A DNA stretch of 64,000 nt from Candidatus Woodwardiibium gallinarum (lineage in GTDB: Bacteria > Bacillota > Clostridia > Oscillospirales > CAG-382), in assembly GCA_904419545.1 (NCBI GenBank), contig CAJFRY010000021.1, positions 1 through 64,000 on the forward strand, written 5' to 3'. Position 1 is the stretch's first letter. Each line of letters opens with the position of its first letter. Positions 17,749 to 28,967 of this stretch are shown here, in pieces. The notes beneath the pieces are model-generated. The model did no database searches. It saw only the letters and a list, made by a program, of their open reading frames with translations, and had not been told where the DNA came from. The position numbers and the translations under genes were made by a program.

Positions 17749-18866
17749 CGCGCACGGCCTATCTGCACGTTCCCTTCTGCCGTTCGAAGTGCCGTTATTG
17801 CGATTTCTACTCCCGTCCCTGCGGGAACGAAGATCAGCTTGAAGCCTACACCCGCGCGCTGCTGCGGCAGATCGGGACGGCGGAGCGGTCGGCGCTGTCG
17901 AGCATTTATTTCGGAGGCGGCACACCTGCCATCCTCGGGACGCGCAGACTGGCGGCGCTGCTGGAGGCGCTCACGGCACGCTTTTCGGTTGAAGCGGACG
18001 CCGAAATCACGCTGGAAATCAACCCAAATTCACTTGGATGCGCCGATCTTTCCGCGCTGCGGAGGGCGGGGTTCAACCGGCTATCGATCGGCCTGCAGTC
18101 TGCGCTGCCGAAGGGGCTTGCGGTGCTGGGGCGGACGCACACGGCGGACGACTTCCTCCGCTGCACAGACGGCGCGCGGCGGGCCGGTTTTTCCAACCTG
18201 TCGGCGGATATGATTTTCGCTGTCCCCGGGCTGTCGGTTAAGGAAAACGCGTTGACTGCCGTATTTTTAGCCGACTGCGGGCCGGAGCATATCTCGGCCT
18301 ACGAGCTGTCCTACGAAGCGGGCACGCCGCTGACGCGCGCGCTGGAGGCCGGAACGATTTCCGCCCACGGCGACGAGGCAGCGGGAGAGATGTACACGCA
18401 GATCTGCGCGCTGCTGCGCGGACAGGGCTATGAACATTACGAAATCAGCAATTTCGCAAAGCCGGGCTTTGCCTCGCGCCACAATCTGCACTACTGGGCC
18501 TGCGGCGAATACTATGCGTTCGGCGCGGCAGCGCACGGTTATCTGAACGGCAGGCGGTTCTCGGTCGTCCGCGACACGGATGCTTACATCGCGCGCACAC
18601 GCGGAGAGGTTTACGATGAATCCTGCGACGACTTCCCCGCCGGTCGAATTTCCGACGAAGAAGCGGAAGAGGAGCGCATCTTCCTCGGGCTGCGGACGGC
18701 GGAGGGGATCCTGCTGACGCCGGCACTGGAAGCGAAACTGGAGTCGCAGGCAGCCTTCTTCACACGCTGCGAGGAAGCGGGGCTTTTAGCGCGGAACGGC
18801 GGGCGTCTGCGGCTGACCGAAGAGGGCTGGCGGGTATCCGACAGCATAATCACCAAATTGATCTGA
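17745..18866 (+). CDS. hemW: HemW-type radical SAM heme chaperone
   Basis: 373 residues. The radical SAM cluster is C12, C16 and C19 in [15 protein letters not shown], followed by [33 protein letters not shown] and the [21 protein letters not shown] block typical of HemW/CPO-like proteins. Members bind heme and are thought to load it into proteins; they are often misannotated as HemN. The lepA-hemW order is common in Bacillota. Confidence 0.9.
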
Positions 18867-18911: not shown

Positions 18912-18940
18912 TTGCGGAATGCACAAGTCGGGTGTATACT
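18912..18940 (+). promoter_or_regulatory. Promoter of the gtrA-capsid operon
   Basis: TTGCGG (18912-18917), 17 nt, TATACT (18935-18940). It is the only promoter I can see for the 10-kb operon ending at the terminator at 28932. Confidence 0.6.
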
Positions 18941-18972
18941 GAAAACGTAGCAAGGGAGCTTAACCGATTGCC

Positions 18973-19431
18973 ATGAATCTGATTCGAAAGCTGTGGAACT
19001 TTGCCTTTCACACGCGGGACGGACTGTATCTCGTCTTCGGCGTGCTGACGACGCTGGTTTCGATCGCCGTGTTTGCCGTATGCGACCTTCTCTTCGGGGA
19101 GGAGCGGCTGATCCTGAACACGGTGCTCAAGAACGTCGCGGGGATTCTGTTCGCCTATTTCACGAACCGGACCATTGTTTTCAAGAGTCAGAACAAGACG
19201 GCCGCCGCGAAAACCGCTGAGTTTATTCAGTTTACCGTCACACGCACGGCGACGCTGTTTCTGGACATGGCGATCGTATGGCTGCTTTGCGACAAGCTGG
19301 CGGTTATGCGCGCAACCATCGCCTCCTGCATCGCCTCGGCGGTGGTGATCGTGCTTAACTACTTTGCGTCCCGATTCCTCGTGTTTGCCCGGAAGCGCGA
19401 CGGGCGGGAAAAAAGCGAGAAAGAAAGTTAA
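18973..19431 (+). CDS. GtrA-family membrane protein
   Basis: 152 residues with four predicted membrane helices and conserved LVFGVLTTLVSI and YFTNRTIVFKS segments of GtrA-type flippases. Relatives move lipid-linked sugars across the membrane; phage-borne copies help change host surface sugars. It is first in the capsid operon, only 3 nt before the terminase small subunit. It could be a phage seroconversion gene or an unrelated host gene captured upstream. Confidence 0.85.
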   Translation: MNLIRKLWNFAFHTRDGLYLVFGVLTTLVSIAVFAVCDLLFGEERLILNTVLKNVAGILFAYFTNRTIVFKSQNKTAAAKTAEFIQFTVTRTATLFLDMAIVWLLCDKLAVMRATIASCIASAVVIVLNYFASRFLVFARKRDGREKSEKES

Positions 19432-19434
19432 TCT

Positions 19435-19812
19435 ATGCCATCTGAAAAATCGTCTGCAAAGGCGATTTTTTTGTCCTCCCGGGCGTTCAGCGAAAAAGTG
19501 GAACGCTATTTCGCCGAATATCTGCCCGAGAGCAAGGAGATCGCCGACGTGGAGAGTCTCTGCTGCTATCTGGGCGTCTCGCGGCGCCGGCTCTTCGAGC
19601 TGGCAAAGGAGAAGCGCTACGCCGACATCGTGGAAAACGCGCTCTGCCGCATTGCCGCGCAGAAGAAGCAGCTTGCGTTCCGCGGCGGGATACCGGCGAC
19701 GGTATTCAGCTTTGATTTCAAGAACAACCACGGGTATTCCGACAAGCCGGAACAAACCGCCTCCGACACCACCATCGTCCTCGAGGGGAAGGCGAAGGAG
19801 TGGTCGGAGTAA
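19435..19812 (+). CDS. Terminase small subunit-like protein
   Basis: 125 residues. An N-terminal helix-turn-helix-like segment (SLCCYLGVSRRRLFELAKE) and a C-terminal FDFKNNHGYSDK stretch are typical of small DNA-packaging subunits that recognise phage DNA. The TAA overlaps the large subunit ATG by one base (TAATG), a very common terminase pair arrangement. Confidence 0.8.
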   Translation: MPSEKSSAKAIFLSSRAFSEKVERYFAEYLPESKEIADVESLCCYLGVSRRRLFELAKEKRYADIVENALCRIAAQKKQLAFRGGIPATVFSFDFKNNHGYSDKPEQTASDTTIVLEGKAKEWSE

Positions 19813-21155
19813 TGAAAAAAATTGTTTTTACGCCGAATGCCAAGCAGGAGGCGTTTTTTCATGCGCAGACACGGTATGTAGCCTACGGAGGCGCGCGGGG
19901 CGGGGGCAAAAGCTGGGCGATGCGTATGAAGCTGATCCTGCTGGCGCTGCGCTACGAGGGGATATCGATCCTGCTGCTGCGACGGACGCTTGGCGAGCTG
20001 CGCGAGAACCACATCCTGCCGATGACCAAGATTCTGGACGGCATAGCCGTCTACAAGGAGAGCACGAAGGATTTCCTGTTCCCCAACGGTTCGCGCATCA
20101 AGCTCGGCTACTGCGATTCGGAGAGCGATGTGCTGCAATATCAGGGGCAGGCATACGAGGTCATCGGGATGGAGGAGGCAACGCACTTCACCTATTACCA
20201 ATACCTCTGCCTGACCGAGTGCAACCGCATCAGCGGCGCGATGCGCGAGCCGTTCACCCCGCGGATGTATTTCACCTGCAATCCGGGCGGCGTAGGCAAC
20301 GACTGGGTGAAGCGTCTGTTCGTCGACCGCATCTACACGGAAAACGAAAAGGCGGAGGATTACACCTTCATCAAAAGTCTGGTGTACGACAACGCCTACC
20401 TGATGGAACACGACCCACAATACGTCCGGGCGCTGGAAGCGCTGCCCGAAAAGCGCCGGCAGGCGATGCTTTACGGCGACTGGAACGCATTTGAGGGCGC
20501 GTTTTTTCCTGAATTCCGCCGCGAAACACACGTGGTCCGTCCGTTTGAGCTGCCGGGCGACTGCGTGCGGTTCCGCGCGCTGGACTACGGTCTGGACATG
20601 ACCGCCTGTCTATGGCTGGCGGTCATGCCCGACAAGCGGATTGTGGTCTACCGAGAATTCTGTCGGCCGAACCTGATCCTTTCGGAAGCGGCGAAGGCAA
20701 TCCTTTCACACACGCCGGCAAATGAAAAAATCCGCTATACGGTGGCTTCGCCCGACCTCTGGAACCGGCGGCAGGACAGCGGCAAAAGCGGCTTTGAGAT
20801 TATGACCGACGCCGGGCTGCGCGGTCTGAAAAAGGCCGACAACGCGCGGATTGCAGGCTGGCGGACGGTACGGGAGTACCTCAACGCAGCCTCCGGACAG
20901 CCGAGGCTGTTCATCTCGGAGGACTGCGGAGAGCTCATCCGCTGTCTGCCCGCGCTTCGGTTCGACGACCGGGTCAGCGAGGACGCCGCCGGTACGCCGC
21001 ACGAGATCACCCACGCGCCGGAGGCGCTTCGCTACGCGCTGATGTCGCGCGAGCCGCGGCCGCCGGCAGGAAAGGAAAGCTTCCCCTCAGTCTACGCCTT
21101 CCCGCCGCCCAAACGCGTGCAGGAGGGTGACTACGCGCATTTTATCAACTATTAA
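19812..21155 (+). CDS. terL: Terminase large subunit
   Basis: 447 residues. Walker A is GGARGGGKS (26-34), Walker B is in VIGMEEATHF, and the C-terminal nuclease half contains RALDYGLDMTACLW and later acidic residues. It is the ATPase/nuclease motor that packages DNA through the portal. The length and both domains appear complete, so packaging activity is plausible. Confidence 0.93.
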   Translation: MKKIVFTPNAKQEAFFHAQTRYVAYGGARGGGKSWAMRMKLILLALRYEGISILLLRRTLGELRENHILPMTKILDGIAVYKESTKDFLFPNGSRIKLGYCDSESDVLQYQGQAYEVIGMEEATHFTYYQYLCLTECNRISGAMREPFTPRMYFTCNPGGVGNDWVKRLFVDRIYTENEKAEDYTFIKSLVYDNAYLMEHDPQYVRALEALPEKRRQAMLYGDWNAFEGAFFPEFRRETHVVRPFELPGDCVRFRALDYGLDMTACLWLAVMPDKRIVVYREFCRPNLILSEAAKAILSHTPANEKIRYTVASPDLWNRRQDSGKSGFEIMTDAGLRGLKKADNARIAGWRTVREYLNAASGQPRLFISEDCGELIRCLPALRFDDRVSEDAAGTPHEITHAPEALRYALMSREPRPPAGKESFPSVYAFPPPKRVQEGDYAHFINY

Positions 21156-21169
21156 AAGGGAGGGAAAAC

Positions 21170-22783
21170 ATGCCGAACCGAACCGAAAAGGCTGCACTTG
21201 CCGAGGATTGGCGGCTGTACGAGGAAGGCAAGACTTACAACCACTCGCTCGACCTGTACAGCAAGGTCAATCTCAACGAGCGGTTTTATCGCGGCGACCA
21301 GTGGGACGGTATCGCCTCGGGCGGGCTGCCGACGCCGGTTTTCAATTTATTCCGGCGCATCATCAACTACTATATTTCCAACCTTCTGTCGAGCGCGGTG
21401 GCCATGCGCTACACGTTTGACTCGCCCTACGGCGACAAAATGAAGATTACTGCCGAGCAGGCGGCGGGCGCGGTGAAAAAACTCAACGACATCGCGCTGC
21501 ACCGCTGGAAGAAGCTGTATATGGACGACCTGCTCAGCGATGCGCTGTACGACGCGGCTATCACCGGCGACGCCGTGGCCTACACCTTCTGGGATCCGAC
21601 GATCAAGACCGGCCAGAGCTTTACGGGCGATTTCCGCACGGTGCTGCTGGACAACACGAACGTCTTTTTCGGCAATCCGAACAGCAAGGACGTCAAGAAC
21701 CAGCCCTACATCCTCATCGCCTCGCGCGAGCTGGTAGAGGACGTGAAGGCGACCGCAGCCAAGCATGGGCGGAGCAAAGAGGAGATCGCGCTCATCACCG
21801 ACGACAGCGACAGCAGCGAATTCGCCGGCGATATGGCGCAAAAGGAGCTGACCGGCACAAAGTGCGTGACACTGACCAAGCTCTGGCGCGGAGAAAACGG
21901 CACCATCTGCTTCCGCAAATCCGTTCGTGACACGGTTATCACCGAAACGATTGACACGGGGCTGCAAAACTATCCGATCTGCTTCTTCAACTGGACGCCG
22001 GTCAAGAACTCTTGGCACGGGCAGGCGGTGGCGACAGGGATGATCGAGAACCAGATTTTCATCAACAAAGCGTTTGCGATGGTGATGAAGCATATGATGG
22101 ACACCGCCTTCTCGAAGGTGGTGTATGACTCGACGATCATCGACGAATGGTCCAACCGCATCGGCGAGGCCGTGGCGGTGAGCGGGCCGGTGGAAAACGT
22201 AGCGAAGGTGCTGTCCCCCGGGCAGATGCAGACCGGTATGCTCGACGTCATCAATATGGCCATCGCACATACGAAGGAGTTCCTCGGCGCGACGGACACT
22301 GCGCTCGGCGATGTACAGCCGACGAACACGAGCGCCATCCTCGCCTTACAGCAGGCAGCCACGCAGCCGCTTGAATGCATCCGCCGGGCGCTCTACCGTT
22401 TTGTCGCGGATATTGGCATGGTCTGGCTGGACTTTATGCTGACCTACTATGACGACAGCCGGCTGGTCTGCGTACCTGAGGGTACGGGCGAAAGCTACCG
22501 CAAGTTCGACTTCTCGCCTTACCGTGAAGCGTTGTTCGACTGCGAGGTCGATGCGGGCGCAAGCAGCTACTGGTCGGAGATCAGCGCACTGAACACGCTG
22601 GACAATCTTCTCATCAACGGCAAAATCGACACGATTCAATATCTGGAGCGTATACCCGACGAGTTGATTCCGAAAAAAGACGCTTTGATTGCCGAAATCA
22701 AGGCAGCCGTAGAGCAGCTTCAGCAGTCGGCGCAAATTGAAAACAGAAAGGAAGAGAACATTGACGAAGGAACAGGTATATGA
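21170..22783 (+). CDS. Phage portal protein
   Basis: 537 residues. The N-terminus (NERFYRGDQWDG) and the arrangement around residues 40-120 (FRRIINYYISNLLSSAV) match portal proteins. A long helical C-terminal part ends in a Gln-rich segment, as in portals with a barrel. AAAGGGAGGG precedes the ATG. It forms the dodecameric DNA channel at a capsid vertex. It overlaps the next gene. Confidence 0.88.
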   Translation: MPNRTEKAALAEDWRLYEEGKTYNHSLDLYSKVNLNERFYRGDQWDGIASGGLPTPVFNLFRRIINYYISNLLSSAVAMRYTFDSPYGDKMKITAEQAAGAVKKLNDIALHRWKKLYMDDLLSDALYDAAITGDAVAYTFWDPTIKTGQSFTGDFRTVLLDNTNVFFGNPNSKDVKNQPYILIASRELVEDVKATAAKHGRSKEEIALITDDSDSSEFAGDMAQKELTGTKCVTLTKLWRGENGTICFRKSVRDTVITETIDTGLQNYPICFFNWTPVKNSWHGQAVATGMIENQIFINKAFAMVMKHMMDTAFSKVVYDSTIIDEWSNRIGEAVAVSGPVENVAKVLSPGQMQTGMLDVINMAIAHTKEFLGATDTALGDVQPTNTSAILALQQAATQPLECIRRALYRFVADIGMVWLDFMLTYYDDSRLVCVPEGTGESYRKFDFSPYREALFDCEVDAGASSYWSEISALNTLDNLLINGKIDTIQYLERIPDELIPKKDALIAEIKAAVEQLQQSAQIENRKEENIDEGTGI

Positions 22784-23297
22784 AGCCGTCAGTGATCTGG
22801 CAAGCGACGCCGGAATGACGGAAGACGGGTACATCGCATCCCTTCTGCGTCAGGCGGAGGAAGACCGGATCCGCAGGACGGAGGGGCTGGACGTCGATCT
22901 GGCCGCCGAGCTGAACGAGTCCCGGCAGCTTCGGCGGGACAACCGCAAGCGCGAGCGTGAGTCGCTGCGCAAAACTGAGATGGAGGAGGACATCCGCCGG
23001 TTCAAGGAATATTTCCCCGACGTGACCGCAGCGGACATCCCCGAAGAAGTATGGGCCGAAGTGGCGGAGGGCGTTTCGCTCACGCACGCCTATGCACTGT
23101 ACAGAGCGGCAATCAGCGCAGAAGACGCAAAAGCGCAGAGCCTGAACCGCGTCAACGCAGACCGCTCCGCGCCGCTGGGCACGGAAGGTGACCCAAACAC
23201 CGCGCTGACACAGGAACAGGTGGAAAACATGAGTCCGCAGGCGGTCAAGAAAAACTACAACCGCATCCTCTCCTCTCTGAAGAACTGGCGGCTTTGA
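22761..23297 (+). CDS. Scaffold-like protein
   Basis: 178 residues, highly charged and helical (RRDNRKRERESLRKTEMEEDIRRF), lying between portal and coat genes, where scaffolding proteins are encoded. The best start is TTG at 22761 with AAAGGAAG six bases upstream, inside the portal gene; an in-frame TTG at 22737 lacks a binding site. Function is inferred from position and composition, not from a recognised domain. Confidence 0.65.
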   Translation: MTKEQVYEAVSDLASDAGMTEDGYIASLLRQAEEDRIRRTEGLDVDLAAELNESRQLRRDNRKRERESLRKTEMEEDIRRFKEYFPDVTAADIPEEVWAEVAEGVSLTHAYALYRAAISAEDAKAQSLNRVNADRSAPLGTEGDPNTALTQEQVENMSPQAVKKNYNRILSSLKNWRL

Positions 23298-23337
23298 GAA
23301 GCCTTGACGAAAACATTTGTAAAGGAATGGTTTGACA

Positions 23338-24171
23338 ATGAGCATTTACAACAGCATCGAAAAAGTAATTTCCGCCGAGATTCTGCGTTCAAATGAGGAC
23401 AACCTGATTGCCAACCGCATCTGCAACACCTCCTTTGTCGGTGACATCAAGAACCGCGGGGACAGCGTAACCTTCATCGGACTGTCCGAGCCGACGGTCT
23501 ACAGCTACGAAGGTACGCTCGATTATGAGGACATCAGCGATTCGGGCGTCGTGCTGTCGATCGACCAGGACATGGTCTTTTCCTTTATGGTCAAAGACCT
23601 GGAGGAGCTGCGCAGCAGCATCGGCCTGAAGGACTCGCAGACCAAGCGCGCTTCCTACAACCTCGGACTGGCGGTGGACAAGTACGTCCTCGGCCTCTAT
23701 GAGGATGCGGGTGAAACGCGCACGGCAGTCACCGTAACGCCGTCCAATGTCCTCGAAACCATTGCGGCTGCGAAGCAGTCGCTGGAGGAGGAAAACGTAC
23801 CGGACGGGCAGTCCTGGATCGTTGTGCCTCCGTTTGTCAAGACAAAGCTGATGCTGGCAGGCATCAAATTCCAAATCAACAACGGCGTCAACGGCACCGG
23901 CAGCCTTGGCTTCACAGACGAGCTGGGCTTTGACATCTATGTTTCGAACAATCTGGCCAAGGACAGCTCCGGCAAGACGATGATGCTGTGCGGCTCGTAT
24001 TCCGCCATCGCATATGCGGAACAGGTGCTGGAAACACAGGTGATCGACCGGATGGAAAGCTCGTTTGCCACCGCAGTGCGCGGGCGTTTGGTGTTCGGCG
24101 CAAAGGTCATCAAGCCCAAGGAGCTCATCTGCACGCCCGTCACGGACGGCGGCAACTCCATCACTGCATAA
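23338..24171 (+). CDS. Major capsid protein (P22 coat-like, HK97 fold)
   Basis: 277 residues. The pattern of NRICNTSFVGDIKNRGDSV, then EGTLDYEDISDSG and LSIDQDMVFSFMVKD follows P22 gp5-type coat proteins. There is no N-terminal delta domain or protease gene nearby, consistent with a separate scaffold. The ATG at 23338 is preceded by AAAGGA 11 bases away; TTG at 23332 is a closer alternative start adding two residues. Confidence 0.88.
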   Translation: MSIYNSIEKVISAEILRSNEDNLIANRICNTSFVGDIKNRGDSVTFIGLSEPTVYSYEGTLDYEDISDSGVVLSIDQDMVFSFMVKDLEELRSSIGLKDSQTKRASYNLGLAVDKYVLGLYEDAGETRTAVTVTPSNVLETIAAAKQSLEEENVPDGQSWIVVPPFVKTKLMLAGIKFQINNGVNGTGSLGFTDELGFDIYVSNNLAKDSSGKTMMLCGSYSAIAYAEQVLETQVIDRMESSFATAVRGRLVFGAKVIKPKELICTPVTDGGNSITA

Positions 24172-24186
24172 CGGGAGGGACAAGGA

Positions 24187-24579
24187 ATGAGCGTTGTTAC
24201 GCAGACCAAGGTCGCTTCCCCCTTTACGGCAGTCCCGCCCGTCTACACCGCAGCGGCCTCTGCGGCGGCGGGCGCCGCAGAGACGTTTACGATCAAGCCC
24301 GACTGCGACGACATCCGCGAGGTGATTCTCGTACGCAACGGCAGCACGGATAAAACGGTCACGGTTTATTTCGAATGCAATGAAAATGCACCCAGGCCGA
24401 CGACGGCAGCACAGACAATCGGGCCGGGCACCGAATGCGCCATTGCAGTTGACAGCGCGCTTCTGAAAAAGGCCGACGGCGGCTTTTCACTCGTTGCCGT
24501 TCCGCCTGCGGATACGGCGCTGTCCGGCTGTTCGTTTTCCGTCGCATCACTGGGGATGCGGCAGACGCCGCTGTATTAA
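24187..24579 (+). CDS. Small putative virion protein
   Basis: 130 residues, Ala/Thr-rich and predicted to be beta-rich, with no signal peptide or membrane helix. It follows the coat gene with a good GGGAGG. Proteins in this position are often head decoration or fibre-like proteins; I recognise no family. Confidence 0.6.
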   Translation: MSVVTQTKVASPFTAVPPVYTAAASAAAGAAETFTIKPDCDDIREVILVRNGSTDKTVTVYFECNENAPRPTTAAQTIGPGTECAIAVDSALLKKADGGFSLVAVPPADTALSGCSFSVASLGMRQTPLY

Positions 24580-24591
24580 AGCAGACGGCAG

Positions 24592-24619
24592 CGTAGGGGG
24601 AGGTTTTCCTCCCCCTACG
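24592..24619 (+). terminator. Perfect 12-bp hairpin inside the capsid operon
   Basis: CGTAGGGGGAGG-TTTT-CCTCCCCCTACG. No T-run follows, so it is not a clear terminator; it may stall polymerase or protect the upstream coat mRNA from 3' decay. Confidence 0.4.
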
Positions 24620-24686
24620 GCAAGCAAAGAAGCCTTGAAAGGAGAATGGATTTGAATCGGACATCTGCACATCGGGGGACAACGCG

Positions 24687-25067
24687 ATGACGGGACAGGC
24701 GCTGTATGAGCTTGCAATGGATATTCTCGCACTCCGTTTTCCGGACGGCGACATTCCTGCAAGCTGCGACGATATGACCGGCCGTGCGCTGGGCCTGATC
24801 AACCTGCTCATAACAGAAAACGCGTTTCTCGACGCGCGGCTGAAAAAGAGCGACCCGGCAGTCGTTCCGATCACCGCACTCAGCGACGAGATTGGGCAAA
24901 GCGCTGAGATTGTCTCACGCGCGATGCCCTACGGGCTGGCGTCGTTGCTCATACTCAACGAGAACGCGACGCTTGCCAGCCTGCTGCATGGATTATACAC
25001 AGCGGCGCTCAACGAAATCAGCCACTCCTACGGCGCCGGAGTTGAACAAATCAAAGAGGTTTATTGA
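24687..25067 (+). CDS. Putative head-tail connector protein
   Basis: 126 residues, mostly helical. Size, helical content and position between coat and tail-hub-like genes suggest a gp4/gp6-type connector that binds the portal. A 14-codon open frame at 24646-24690 with AAAGGAGA ends by overlapping its ATG (ATGA), so translation may be coupled. The family is inferred from context. Confidence 0.55.
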   Translation: MTGQALYELAMDILALRFPDGDIPASCDDMTGRALGLINLLITENAFLDARLKKSDPAVVPITALSDEIGQSAEIVSRAMPYGLASLLILNENATLASLLHGLYTAALNEISHSYGAGVEQIKEVY

Positions 25068-25242
25068 AAACCGGACTTTCCCCTGGGCCGGTGGACGACC
25101 TTCCCGTGCTGCCGGCGGCAGCTTCGCCGACCAAGGCGGGGCACGGGTGTCCCTTGGGCCGGAAAAAACGGCGCCGACCGGCCGGTCCGCACTTCCTTGC
25201 TGCACAGTGCGCGAGTCCGCTCAGGCAGAACCGCAGCGAGGC
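25068..25242 (+). other. GC-rich structured spacer in the capsid operon
   Basis: About 175 nt without a supported gene. CCCGTGC (25102-25108) can pair with GCACGGG (25141-25147), enclosing GCTGCC-GGC-GGCAGC; TGGGCCGG is directly repeated. Open frames across it have unlike composition and are probably spurious. Confidence 0.45.
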
Positions 25243-26991
25243 ATGACATATATTCCTCAAGAAAGGCATGGCAAACAGCCTATGAAAAAGCATCAAACGA
25301 CGCAGTTTTCGGGCTATAACGAGCTGTTAACGGTCAGCGACGGACTGACCTTCAGCCCGAATATGTGCAATTTCAAAATTCTGCCGGACGGTTCACTGAA
25401 GAAGCGCGAAGGATACAGCGAGCTGTTCACGGCAACCGGCTCGGTCGAGGGATTATGGGGCGGCACGATTGCAGGCCACAACATCCTTGCCGCTTCCATC
25501 GGCGGCGACCTGTGGATCTACGACCTGGATCTCTCGATGTCATACAACGCCGGGGAAATCGGCACGGGGCACGCATCGATGTTTCCCTTCGGCGGCAAGC
25601 TGTACATCCTTAACGGGGTCGACTACTACTGCTATGACGGCAATACATTGACAACGGCGTCCGGATACGCGCCGCTCATTCTGATTGCCTGCGACCCATC
25701 CGACGGTTCGGGAACGCTGTACGAGGAAGTCAACCTGCTCTCTCTTCAGCGTCGGCAGCGCTTCAACACGGACGGCTCGACGCGCAACTTCCGTTTCACG
25801 GAAAAGAACATTGATAAAGTGGATTGGGTGAAATTCAACGGTGAAACGCTGGCATCGAACGCATACTCCTTCTCCAAAACCTACGGCGCGATCACGCTGA
25901 CAACAGCACCGGCCGAAGCGACCGACGCGCTGGAGGTATGCTACACGCTGGCCGCGACCGAAAGCCGGAGAAGCATCATCACCGCCTATCGCTACGCGAT
26001 GATTTTCGGAGGCAACACAGACAACCGCATTTTTATCTGGGGCAGTGAGGACGAGCCATGTACCATACGGCATACGGCACTGGGCGACGGCGTTCCGAAC
26101 CCGGAATACTTCCCCGAAAACAGCTTCCGCGTCATCGGAGACACGGCAATCACCGATATCATCCAGCAATATGACCGTCAGCTCATCTTCGCGCAGGACC
26201 GCGCGTTTTATTCCTACTGCGATCTGACGACCGACGCGATGGGCAACGCCTACGCTTCCTATCCCGTGTTTGCGCTCAACGCCTCCAAGGGCAGTCTGAT
26301 CTACGGCGGCGGCACAATTGCAGACGGCTGTCCGATCACCTTCTGCGGCGATGGGCTGAATCGCTGGGAAGCGACGAACGTACAGGATGAGCGAAGCGCA
26401 ACCTGTTTTTCACAACGGATTGACAAAAGCATTGCGGAGCTTTTACGATACCGGCGCTACGAGGACGGCGTCCTGCACTTTCACCAGCCGACGTCCGAGC
26501 TGTTTTTATGCTGCGAGGACAAAATGTATATCTGCAATACAAGGCTGAACGCATGGTACGTCTATGACGGGCTGTACACAACGGCGATGTGCACGGTCGG
26601 CGACAGTCTTTATATCGGAGACCGCTACGGCCGTGTGGTCTGCCCGAACGACAGCATCAAAAATTTTGAAGCGACGTGGGTATCGCCGACTTGCAGCTTC
26701 GGCTGCTGCGGACGGCTCTTCACAACCGGAAAGCTGTTCTATACCGCAGAATGGAAGAGCGGCGCCGGTTTTTCGGTCGGCTGGGCGGAGAATACGCTGC
26801 GCGAGGGCAGCACATACACCGAGACAGGCGACGGCATCACCGACAAACATGAGCTGTATCGTGCTGTCCGGCTGCCGGCGAAGCGGGTCGCAGCCGTCAA
26901 GCTGCAAATCACCTCCCCGTCCGGCAAGGACGCATGCATTCACGCCCTGGCCGTCGAATACAATGAAATGGGGGATTACAGACTTGGTTAA
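25243..26991 (+). CDS. Beta-propeller-like virion protein (tail hub/DNA stabilisation candidate)
   Basis: About 582 residues. Repeated blade-like segments (for example LWGGTIAGHNILAASIGGDLWIYD and MFPFGGKLYILNGVDYYCYDG) suggest a propeller. P22 gp10, which caps the packaged head, has a related architecture and gene position, so a similar role is plausible. The start is uncertain: ATG 25243, or ATG 25282 (MKKHQTTQFSG), both in frame. Confidence 0.6.
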   Translation: MTYIPQERHGKQPMKKHQTTQFSGYNELLTVSDGLTFSPNMCNFKILPDGSLKKREGYSELFTATGSVEGLWGGTIAGHNILAASIGGDLWIYDLDLSMSYNAGEIGTGHASMFPFGGKLYILNGVDYYCYDGNTLTTASGYAPLILIACDPSDGSGTLYEEVNLLSLQRRQRFNTDGSTRNFRFTEKNIDKVDWVKFNGETLASNAYSFSKTYGAITLTTAPAEATDALEVCYTLAATESRRSIITAYRYAMIFGGNTDNRIFIWGSEDEPCTIRHTALGDGVPNPEYFPENSFRVIGDTAITDIIQQYDRQLIFAQDRAFYSYCDLTTDAMGNAYASYPVFALNASKGSLIYGGGTIADGCPITFCGDGLNRWEATNVQDERSATCFSQRIDKSIAELLRYRRYEDGVLHFHQPTSELFLCCEDKMYICNTRLNAWYVYDGLYTTAMCTVGDSLYIGDRYGRVVCPNDSIKNFEATWVSPTCSFGCCGRLFTTGKLFYTAEWKSGAGFSVGWAENTLREGSTYTETGDGITDKHELYRAVRLPAKRVAAVKLQITSPSGKDACIHALAVEYNEMGDYRLG

Positions 26992-28186
26992 CGACTGGAT
27001 CGAAAGCATCAAAAACGCATTGGAAGCATACGGCAAGCAAAGCGACGAAACACTCACTTCACTGTACGCCGCCGCGCGGGACGAGTACAACAAAAGCTAC
27101 AATGCGGCGCTGGATACACTCAACGCGCAATACGAATCCGACAAAAAACAGGCGTACACAAAAAAAGCGGCCGACGATAAGAATATGGGTGAATACTTAG
27201 CCGCACGCGGTCTGTCGCGGTCGGGTGAGAGCGTGAACGCGCGCATTGCATCAGACGTTTCGCTTGGGAACACCTTGTCCGCGCTGTCAAGCGGACTGCG
27301 CGAATCGCAGAACACGCTTGCCTCCGATTACGGCAAGGCACTGGCGAATCTTGCGATAGAGGAGGCGAACAAAAAAGCCGAGAACAACCGCTGGACGGCA
27401 GAGTTCTCCGCCTCGCTGGCGAGCACGGCCGCCGATAACGCGCTGCGTGAGGAACAGAACCGTCTCGACCGCGATAAATTCAACCATACCGTAGAAATGG
27501 ACAACAATGCGCTCAATGATCTGAAAGCCGAGCTGGAAGCATACGAAGCGGAGCTGAAGAAGCGCGAAGAGGCACTCAAGGAGGCCGAAAGCAACAAGCC
27601 GGGCACAGGAAACACAGGGAATACAAGCGCATCGGACGACACACCGGGAAATACGGGCGGCAACGAGGACAACAACTCGATGCTCAACCCTGCCGAACTG
27701 GCAAAGGATATCGTCTCACAATACGCGACAGGCAAAACGCTTTCCACGCAGGCGGAAAACTTTGCCGTTCTCAAATACCTGCGCAATCTCAAACGCGAGG
27801 GCATCGACGAGGCATATTACGACTCTCTTGTTTCCAACCTGAAGGCGCTGGGCTTTACGGGGGCGAACGTAAACTACAATACGCTGCTTGACACAGTCAA
27901 CGACAGTATTGAAAACTATTATCGCCTGCAGGAAGAGCTTTACAATCTCTATTTGGAAAAAGGCTTCAGTCCGGAAATCGCGTCCGCCGGTTCCAAAGAC
28001 CGGGCACAGGGACTGCAGTATGAATACCTGTACAGACACTCGCCGAGCATATCCTTCTTTGAGCTGGCCGTCTATGCGGCGGATCTGGACCTCGACCATC
28101 TGGAAACCTTCTACAGCCATGTAGAAACAAACAGGCGCGACCCGAATGAATATGACATCGTACTCGGCGGTGCGCTGAAGCATTGA
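26963..28186 (+). CDS. Coiled-coil structural protein, phage-type
   Basis: About 407 residues. Residues 1-180 are Ala/Glu-rich helix, including EYLAARGLSRSGESVNARIA, then a clear coiled coil (LKAELEAYEAELKKREEALKE), a Gly/Asn/Thr linker (about residues 214-235) and a helical C-terminal domain. It overlaps the preceding gene. ATG 26963 lacks a strong binding site; TTG 26984 after GGGGG is an alternative. It could be an ejection or tail-accessory protein; no family is recognised with confidence. Confidence 0.6.
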   Translation: MKWGITDLVNDWIESIKNALEAYGKQSDETLTSLYAAARDEYNKSYNAALDTLNAQYESDKKQAYTKKAADDKNMGEYLAARGLSRSGESVNARIASDVSLGNTLSALSSGLRESQNTLASDYGKALANLAIEEANKKAENNRWTAEFSASLASTAADNALREEQNRLDRDKFNHTVEMDNNALNDLKAELEAYEAELKKREEALKEAESNKPGTGNTGNTSASDDTPGNTGGNEDNNSMLNPAELAKDIVSQYATGKTLSTQAENFAVLKYLRNLKREGIDEAYYDSLVSNLKALGFTGANVNYNTLLDTVNDSIENYYRLQEELYNLYLEKGFSPEIASAGSKDRAQGLQYEYLYRHSPSISFFELAVYAADLDLDHLETFYSHVETNRRDPNEYDIVLGGALKH

Positions 28187-28236
28187 ACAGGCTGACCGCC
28201 TTATCCGGCGGCAGGAACGAGAAAGGACAACAGCTT

Positions 28237-28548
28237 ATGGATTGGAACGCATATCTCAAGCCGGAGCTTTCCGTGCTCATCCCCGTGCTCTATCTCATCG
28301 GTGCAGCTCTGAAAAAGACATCTATCGGAAACTGGCGCATCCCCTTCCTGCTCGGCGGCGGGGGCATTCTGCTGGCAGCACTGTATCTGCTGTCATCCGC
28401 CTTCCCCGACAACGGGCCGCAGCTTTTTGCGCTGCTGTTCTCTGCCGTAACACAGGGAATTCTCGGAGCAGCCGGCGCAGTGTACGCCAACAACCTGCTC
28501 AAGCAGTATACCAAACGAAAAGAGGAAGAGCAGGATGCGGATTCTTAA
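28237..28548 (+). CDS. Holin-like membrane protein
   Basis: 103 residues with two to three membrane helices and a charged C-terminus (KRKEEEQDADS). The opening LKPELSVLIPVLYLIGAALKKT resembles the Phage_holin_5 type group. The ATG follows GAAAGGA. Holins form membrane holes that release or activate an endolysin, but no endolysin gene accompanies it. Confidence 0.75.
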   Translation: MDWNAYLKPELSVLIPVLYLIGAALKKTSIGNWRIPFLLGGGGILLAALYLLSSAFPDNGPQLFALLFSAVTQGILGAAGAVYANNLLKQYTKRKEEEQDADS

Positions 28549-28600
28549 ACACATCTATCAGGCGTTTTATACGCTGTTCTGTTGTATTTACGAAATATGA
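28535..28600 (+). CDS. Tiny 21-residue peptide gene
   Basis: ATG CGG ... TGA with AGAGGAAGAG just upstream; the product is MRILKHIYQAFYTLFCCIYEI. It overlaps the holin end by 14 nt and the next gene by ATGA, which suggests coupled translation of a lysis-region micro-protein. Expression is unproven. Confidence 0.4.
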   Translation: MRILKHIYQAFYTLFCCIYEI

Positions 28601-28920
28601 CAGAGGGCTTTACGGAGCTGCTGCTCACACTGTTTTCATCGGCGGGGCTGGCGGGTGCATTGTTCGCGGCGCTGCTGTCGCATGTGCTCAGGAAAGCGCG
28701 CGCCGACGCCGACCGTCGCCGGCAGGAACGGACGTCGCTGGAGATCATGCGGTGTGAGGGCGAAGCGGCTGCCGGAGAACTGCTGCTGACGCTCGTCGCC
28801 TTCGTACAGGGACACTGCGGCGAGACGGAGCTGAAAACAGCGCGGGACGAATACGGCAGCTATTTGGAAAAAAGCAGAGCGCTCAAGGCCAAGCTGGCCG
28901 CCGAGCACACCGAAAAATGA
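28597..28920 (+). CDS. Small membrane-anchored phage protein
   Basis: 107 residues: one N-terminal membrane helix (about 9-30), then a charged Arg-rich helical cytoplasmic part. It is the last gene of the capsid operon, right before the terminator. It could be a spanin- or antiholin-like protein; no family is recognised. Confidence 0.55.
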   Translation: MTEGFTELLLTLFSSAGLAGALFAALLSHVLRKARADADRRRQERTSLEIMRCEGEAAAGELLLTLVAFVQGHCGETELKTARDEYGSYLEKSRALKAKLAAEHTEK

Positions 28921-28931
28921 CCGCACAGCAA

Positions 28932-28967
28932 AAAAGGCCCGGCCGCTTTGAAGCGGCCGGGCCTTTT
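28932..28967 (+). terminator. Strong intrinsic terminator of the capsid operon
   Basis: GGCCCGGCCGCTT-TG-AAGCGGCCGGGCC (28936-28963) followed by TTTT and preceded by an A-run, so it can also act in reverse. Confidence 0.9.

Follow-up and report, generated by a model that had tools for sequence, protein, structure and literature searches.

The window (the whole stretch of 64,000 nucleotides analysed) carries at positions 18973-28920 a cassette of co-directional, tightly packed genes on the plus strand, which lies between hemW (ending at 18866) and a strong intrinsic terminator and has the order gtrA-terS-terL-portal-scaffold-coat-two small genes-nozzle-coiled-coil-holin-small gene. The first gene (18973-19431) encodes a GtrA/DPMS-family membrane protein (PF04138, 4.6e-18) and is followed by genes for the small terminase subunit TerS (19435-19812; PF16677, GP3_package, 1.3e-11; phrog_606, 5.1e-9), the packaging ATPase/nuclease TerL (19812-21155; phrog_979, 2e-50; PF04466; PDB 5oe8, 5e-6) and the portal protein (21170-22783; phrog_156, 7.9e-32; P22_portal PF16510, 2.1e-12). 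The gene at 22737-23297, which is kept in 38 loci, encodes a probable scaffolding protein, as indicated by its position between portal and coat; its profile match is phrog_14606 (8.4e-8), a family of unknown function. The major coat protein (23338-24171; phrog_267, 1.2e-40) has a minimal HK97 fold and its closest PDB structure is 8e16, a capsid protein annotated as gp6 (7.3e-21); a first-pass annotation had called this coat P22-like, and nothing was found that ties it specifically to P22. The product of 24187-24579 gave no database match in the profile searches; fast-evolving homologues occupy the same position in related cassettes, and this position suggests a possible decoration or head protein. 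After the tail adaptor (24687-25067) and the tail nozzle or hub (25282-26991) comes a coiled-coil protein (about 26984-28186) with a conserved RGLxxSGE motif, which is present in all full cassettes and might conceivably be a tail needle or an ejection protein. The operon closes with a holin of the Hol44 family (28237-28548; PF16079, 5.3e-19) and a small protein with a hydrophobic N-terminus and a charged C-terminus (28582-28920), which 23 of 38 loci keep as their last gene, gave no family match in the profile search and is possibly a second lysis protein.

Open reading frames and profile searches agreed with the first-pass annotation that the named genes are all present on one strand and unbroken, with no stop or frameshift seen in the window; TerS, TerL, portal, coat and holin were placed confidently by profile, and the gene content bore out that integrase, repressor, replication and lysin genes are missing from the cassette. 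As for the promoter and terminator said to bound it, the terminator stood (28936-28967, plus strand; a perfect 13-bp hairpin at 28936-28963 followed by TTTT), but the promoter is less secure. The possible promoter TTGCGG-N17-TATACT (18912-18940, plus strand), which was read directly from the sequence, is weak by consensus and was not among the matches of the consensus scan, and promoter-like matches in the region were at chance level (4 found against 3.6 expected).

Packaging and tail proteins

In TerL, the Walker A and B motifs and residues D258, D315 and E404 are invariant across 14 family members, and the third acidic nuclease site is D or E elsewhere; from these motifs the terminase of the cassette is predicted to be catalytically competent. 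The adaptor and the nozzle gave little or no useful sequence match, and their structures were predicted from alignments of their relatives. The AlphaFold model of the 126-residue adaptor (pLDDT 88) had P22 gp4 and Sf6 gp7 as its best Foldseek matches, with a probability of 0.96 and a TM-score of about 0.56 at an E-value of only 0.19. The model of the 569-residue nozzle (pLDDT 89), a beta-propeller protein, matched P22 gp10 (E 2e-16, TM 0.59/0.70) and also Sf6 gp8 and T7 gp12 (E about 1e-16). These predicted structures uphold the earlier calls of a connector and a propeller-like hub. Since a portal, a gp4-like adaptor and a gp10-like nozzle indicate a podovirus tail, the particle encoded by the cassette is, on the models, podovirus-like. 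Tape-measure and tail-tube genes are indeed absent, but their absence cannot be read as a sign of loss because a podovirus-type tail expects it. Neither endolysin nor receptor-binding genes were found in the cassette, and a tail-fibre-like profile (A7) that was built from other families had no match in 12 genomes of the host family.

Distribution and descent in CAG-382

The host family is CAG-382 of the order Oscillospirales in GTDB, for which 63 species genomes from 13 genera were searched; most of these relatives are metagenome assemblies. The candidate genus Coliplasma was assigned to this family in GTDB R06-RS202 (PMC8957277), and the coat search matched a record of Candidatus Coliplasma caballi (L076) at coordinates identical to those of the match in G060, a genome of the host family (f1). 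A TerL profile detected a related cassette in 57 of the 63 species, 29 of the 32 high-quality genomes and 12 of the 13 genera, essentially once per genome; the other TerL matches were fragments at contig ends or belonged to unrelated phages. The type found in the window, referred to as type A, occurs in eight genera (g1, g2, g5, g6, g9, g10, g12 and g13), and its coat was found in 42 of the 63 species genomes, so the cassette is not the property of one strain; restriction to a single strain was what the first-pass annotation had named as grounds for rejecting its reading. In four genera (g3, g4, g7 and g8; loci L032-L044) type A is replaced by a distinct compact cassette, type B, which follows the same plan (TerS-TerL-portal-scaffold-extra-coat-connector-nozzle-coiled coil) with a TerL about 50% identical and a coat that begins MNDIYTW. 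Host genes flanking type B are common to species within a genus. The near-complete genomes G020, G076 and G010 had no detectable cassette, which likely reflects losses, and the cassette is therefore dispensable.

Type A follows lepA-hemW immediately downstream in g1, in every examined member of g5 and g6, in several members of g9 and in one of g10; in the other genomes it occupies different positions, having moved. The lepA-hemW position is thus common to several genera, and the downstream ZIP and ferritin genes, which the first-pass annotation had proposed to compare as well, are not conserved among related loci. The gtrA gene adjoins terS also in g5 and g6 and stands divergently beside terS in g2. 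Where the cassette has left lepA-hemW, gtrA still stays by terS in divergent orientation (L054, L061 and L063), and the adjacency hints at a functional link, such as a change of surface glycans. Searches for tyrosine integrases and large serine recombinases found none on the contig of the window and none at up to 10 kb from the cassette in 20 family genomes, the nearest among these being about 16 kb off (G017), so the flanking integrase that would have spoken for a mobile element did not appear.

To compare descent, a tree of terL, portal and coat from 19 genomes was set against a host tree built on lepA alone. The two had 11 of 16 internal splits in common, where 2000 random permutations gave a mean of 0.23 and at most 4, and the patristic distances correlated with r 0.88 (permutation maximum 0.47). 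The AU test rejected strict identity of the two trees (p 0.011 and 0.001), each data set rejecting the exact topology of the other; the mismatch leaves room for a degree of exchange among relatives or for errors of the single-gene host tree. Selection on the core genes is purifying, with dN/dS of 0.04-0.09 for terL, 0.05-0.12 for portal and 0.01-0.13 for coat where dS was estimable (some of the more divergent pairs had reached saturation). All core genes that gave a usable estimate have changed much more at synonymous than at non-synonymous sites, and TerL ranks with the slowest-evolving genes of the cassette. Of the 285 core gene copies in 38 named loci, 282 have their full length; neither relaxed selection nor widespread inactivation was thus encountered. 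The only clear disruption away from contig ends is a nozzle gene split into two open reading frames in G022 (L065/L099), which is either decay or an assembly error. An in-frame TGA in the coat gene of G078 comes only a few codons ahead of where the protein normally ends, and the portal "stops" flagged in searches are, to judge from their coordinates, apparently natural ends that the model read through. The third-position GC content of the cassette is host-like (0.735 against 0.751 in the flanks). Judged from these comparisons, phage-derived structural and terminase genes appear to have been fixed in the lineage by vertical descent, with a strong, though not perfect, match of trees. Working prophages also show purifying selection, and therefore it is the common locus, the usual single copy, the missing mobility genes and the tracking of the host tree, taken together, that discriminate.

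A putative gene-transfer-agent-like particle

Gene content, the identities of the tail parts, intactness, selection, single-copy distribution, the common locus and host-tree tracking lead us to conclude that the cassette is probably a domesticated phage head-and-tail module, kept vertically in CAG-382 and working as a gene-transfer-agent (GTA)-like particle. The first-pass annotation had preferred such a short-tailed, domesticated particle over a decaying prophage, and that preference draws support from the distribution, the locus, the selection estimates and the integrase searches, all of them sequence comparisons. In the mechanism that we propose, a host signal of some kind would lead to transcription of the operon, and scaffold and coat would build a small procapsid on the portal. 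TerS and TerL would then load random cellular DNA by headful packaging, because the system replicates or excises no element of its own. The short tail that closes the head would be formed by the gp4-like adaptor, the gp10-like nozzle and the coiled-coil protein; the holin together with a lytic enzyme from elsewhere would lyse a few cells and release the particles, and recipient cells would take up the particle DNA.

We found no description of the CAG-382 cassette in the literature, in which the paper on FpGTA of Faecalibacterium is the parallel. FpGTA I, located at CP030777:2536737-2546346 and including the proteins RCH50849.1 and RCH50851.1, is an operon of about 10-10.5 kb with TerS-TerL-portal-scaffold-MCP plus hypothetical genes, and its particles of about 40 nm package about 9 kb of DNA (Borodovich et al. 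2026; PMC12946183). Its authors name it the first podovirus-like GTA-like element and report GTA-like packaging of host DNA also elsewhere in Ruminococcaceae and Oscillospiraceae (PMC12946183). Compared by published description, the CAG-382 cassette resembles FpGTA I in being an operon of about 10 kb with the same gene order, a podovirus-like tail and no replication genes, in related gut Clostridia. It differs in having its own holin and GtrA genes, in its site at lepA-hemW and in being conserved across a family, whereas FpGTA was reported from one genus. FpGTA II has an operon of tail fibre, RBP, holin and endolysin; no such operon was found among the 12 genomes searched with the A7 profile from other families, and the holin of the window lies inside the cassette. 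Few GTAs are known outside Alphaproteobacteria. Podovirus-like ones are already on record but very recent, with a single gut genus as the source of the 2026 report; the CAG-382 cassette, as a probable member of this kind, extends it to a much larger evolutionary scale and gives concrete loci for asking why cells keep such systems.

RcGTA is a vertically inherited, intact cluster of structural and terminase genes without replication or integration genes. The CAG-382 cassette is like RcGTA and other alphaproteobacterial GTAs in this respect, having by gene content and by the integrase and recombinase searches no replication, integration or immunity genes of its own; RcGTA is siphovirus-like, however, whereas the cassette has a podovirus-type adaptor and nozzle. 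With P22/Sf6-like podoviruses it shares the portal family, the gp4/gp7-like adaptor and the gp10/gp8-like nozzle. It has the portal-adaptor-nozzle tail of a temperate P22-like prophage but not the integrase, repressor and replication genes, nor immunity or lysin genes, and its coat is closest to the gp6 capsid structure. Unlike cf-PICIs, which are integrase-borne and depend on the tails of a helper, the cassette has no integrase within 10 kb in the 20 genomes and carries its own tail genes. PBSX of the Gram-positive Bacillus subtilis is likewise a defective-phage particle that is inherited, but has a long contractile tail in place of the short tail of the cassette.

PBSX also exemplifies an alternative that we regard as unlikely, namely that the domesticated particle transfers no genes and serves to kill relatives or has some different role, in which DNA would be packaged only incidentally. 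The lack of any detected receptor-binding or endolysin gene would fit such a role, and even for FpGTA delivery is unproven and its authors raise a PBSX-like role (PMC12946183). Against this, the TerL ATPase and nuclease motifs are conserved family-wide and TerL evolves slowly, from which DNA packaging itself appears to be selected. It is quite improbable that the cassette is a live mobile element (a prophage, a satellite or a capsid-forming island) that repeatedly integrates near lepA. Its tree is not identical to that of lepA, its position has moved in some genera and related free podophages occur in IMG/VR (L176 and L178); it has, however, no integrase or recombinase at up to 10 kb in the 20 genomes searched and no replication genes, is usually present in one copy, strongly tracks the host tree, and its type A matches in IMG/VR are short contigs covering mainly the cassette. 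That it is a decaying prophage remnant is hardly credible: the missing integrase, control and lysis genes and the split nozzle of G022 would suit one, but a remnant would not keep nearly all core copies full length, low dN/dS and the same gene order across type A genera that share no more than about 77-82% identity in LepA.

Sister clade f17 and wider relatives

A portal profile matched 135 of 394 genomes of the order Oscillospirales, and searches with portal and TerL pick up cassettes or prophages of other families too, among which only clade f17 was studied closely enough to be called inherited. In f17, 20 genomes from several genera have one conserved TerL each, plus the portal. The 19 of these whose TerL is near full length never have it beside the portal: the two genes lie on different contigs in 17 genomes and 18-24 kb apart on one contig in the other two. 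TerS-TerL of f17 occupies its own locus, separate from portal-coat-nozzle (L069 and L155-L173 with L115-L121), and a thiT-like transporter gene, its identity inferred from sequence, adjoins TerL in about nine loci. A terminase kept elsewhere on the chromosome is not expected of a self-mobilising phage, whereas dispersed genes are a known trait of GTAs. In genus g84 a large serine recombinase gene (PF07508) directly follows TerL in 5 of 5 sampled genomes (L155, L156, L158, L159 and L164). At one f17 locus (L116, G145) the portal is on its own; scaffold, coat and nozzle genes were not detected around it, which points to additional dispersal or to loss.

In the TerL tree type A forms a single clade that is sister to f17, and the sampled genera mostly form clades. 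We tentatively propose, at somewhat less than even confidence, that a single podovirus was domesticated before the split of CAG-382 and f17, possibly close to the base of Oscillospirales and with FpGTA included, and has been inherited since in lineage-specific forms, which would be the lepA-hemW operon, the detached terminase operon of f17 and the type B replacement in four CAG-382 genera. The free podophages of IMG/VR have the same core order and are likely the kind of ancestor. A family-wide, host-tracking and selected cassette with order-wide relatives would make capsid-borne gene exchange ancient in major gut Clostridia.

A related cassette in family f26 (genus g50; L183 and L184) has holin-like genes and a likely GH25 lysin, is followed by a valS-like gene and has no adjacent TerL; it might serve as a model for the lysis genes that the CAG-382 cassette lacks. 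The "viral" contigs L072-L074 and L113 in IMG/VR are mostly pieces of the chromosomal cassette and probably host DNA misfiled as virus, a warning that virus databases contain some short "viral" contigs made up of host genes. MT836592.1 (L114), an unannotated 9.6-kb human faecal "Bacteriophage sp." record, has TerL-portal-scaffold-coat-nozzle in the same order with a TerL 52% identical, and may be the chromosomal cassette of a human gut bacterium.
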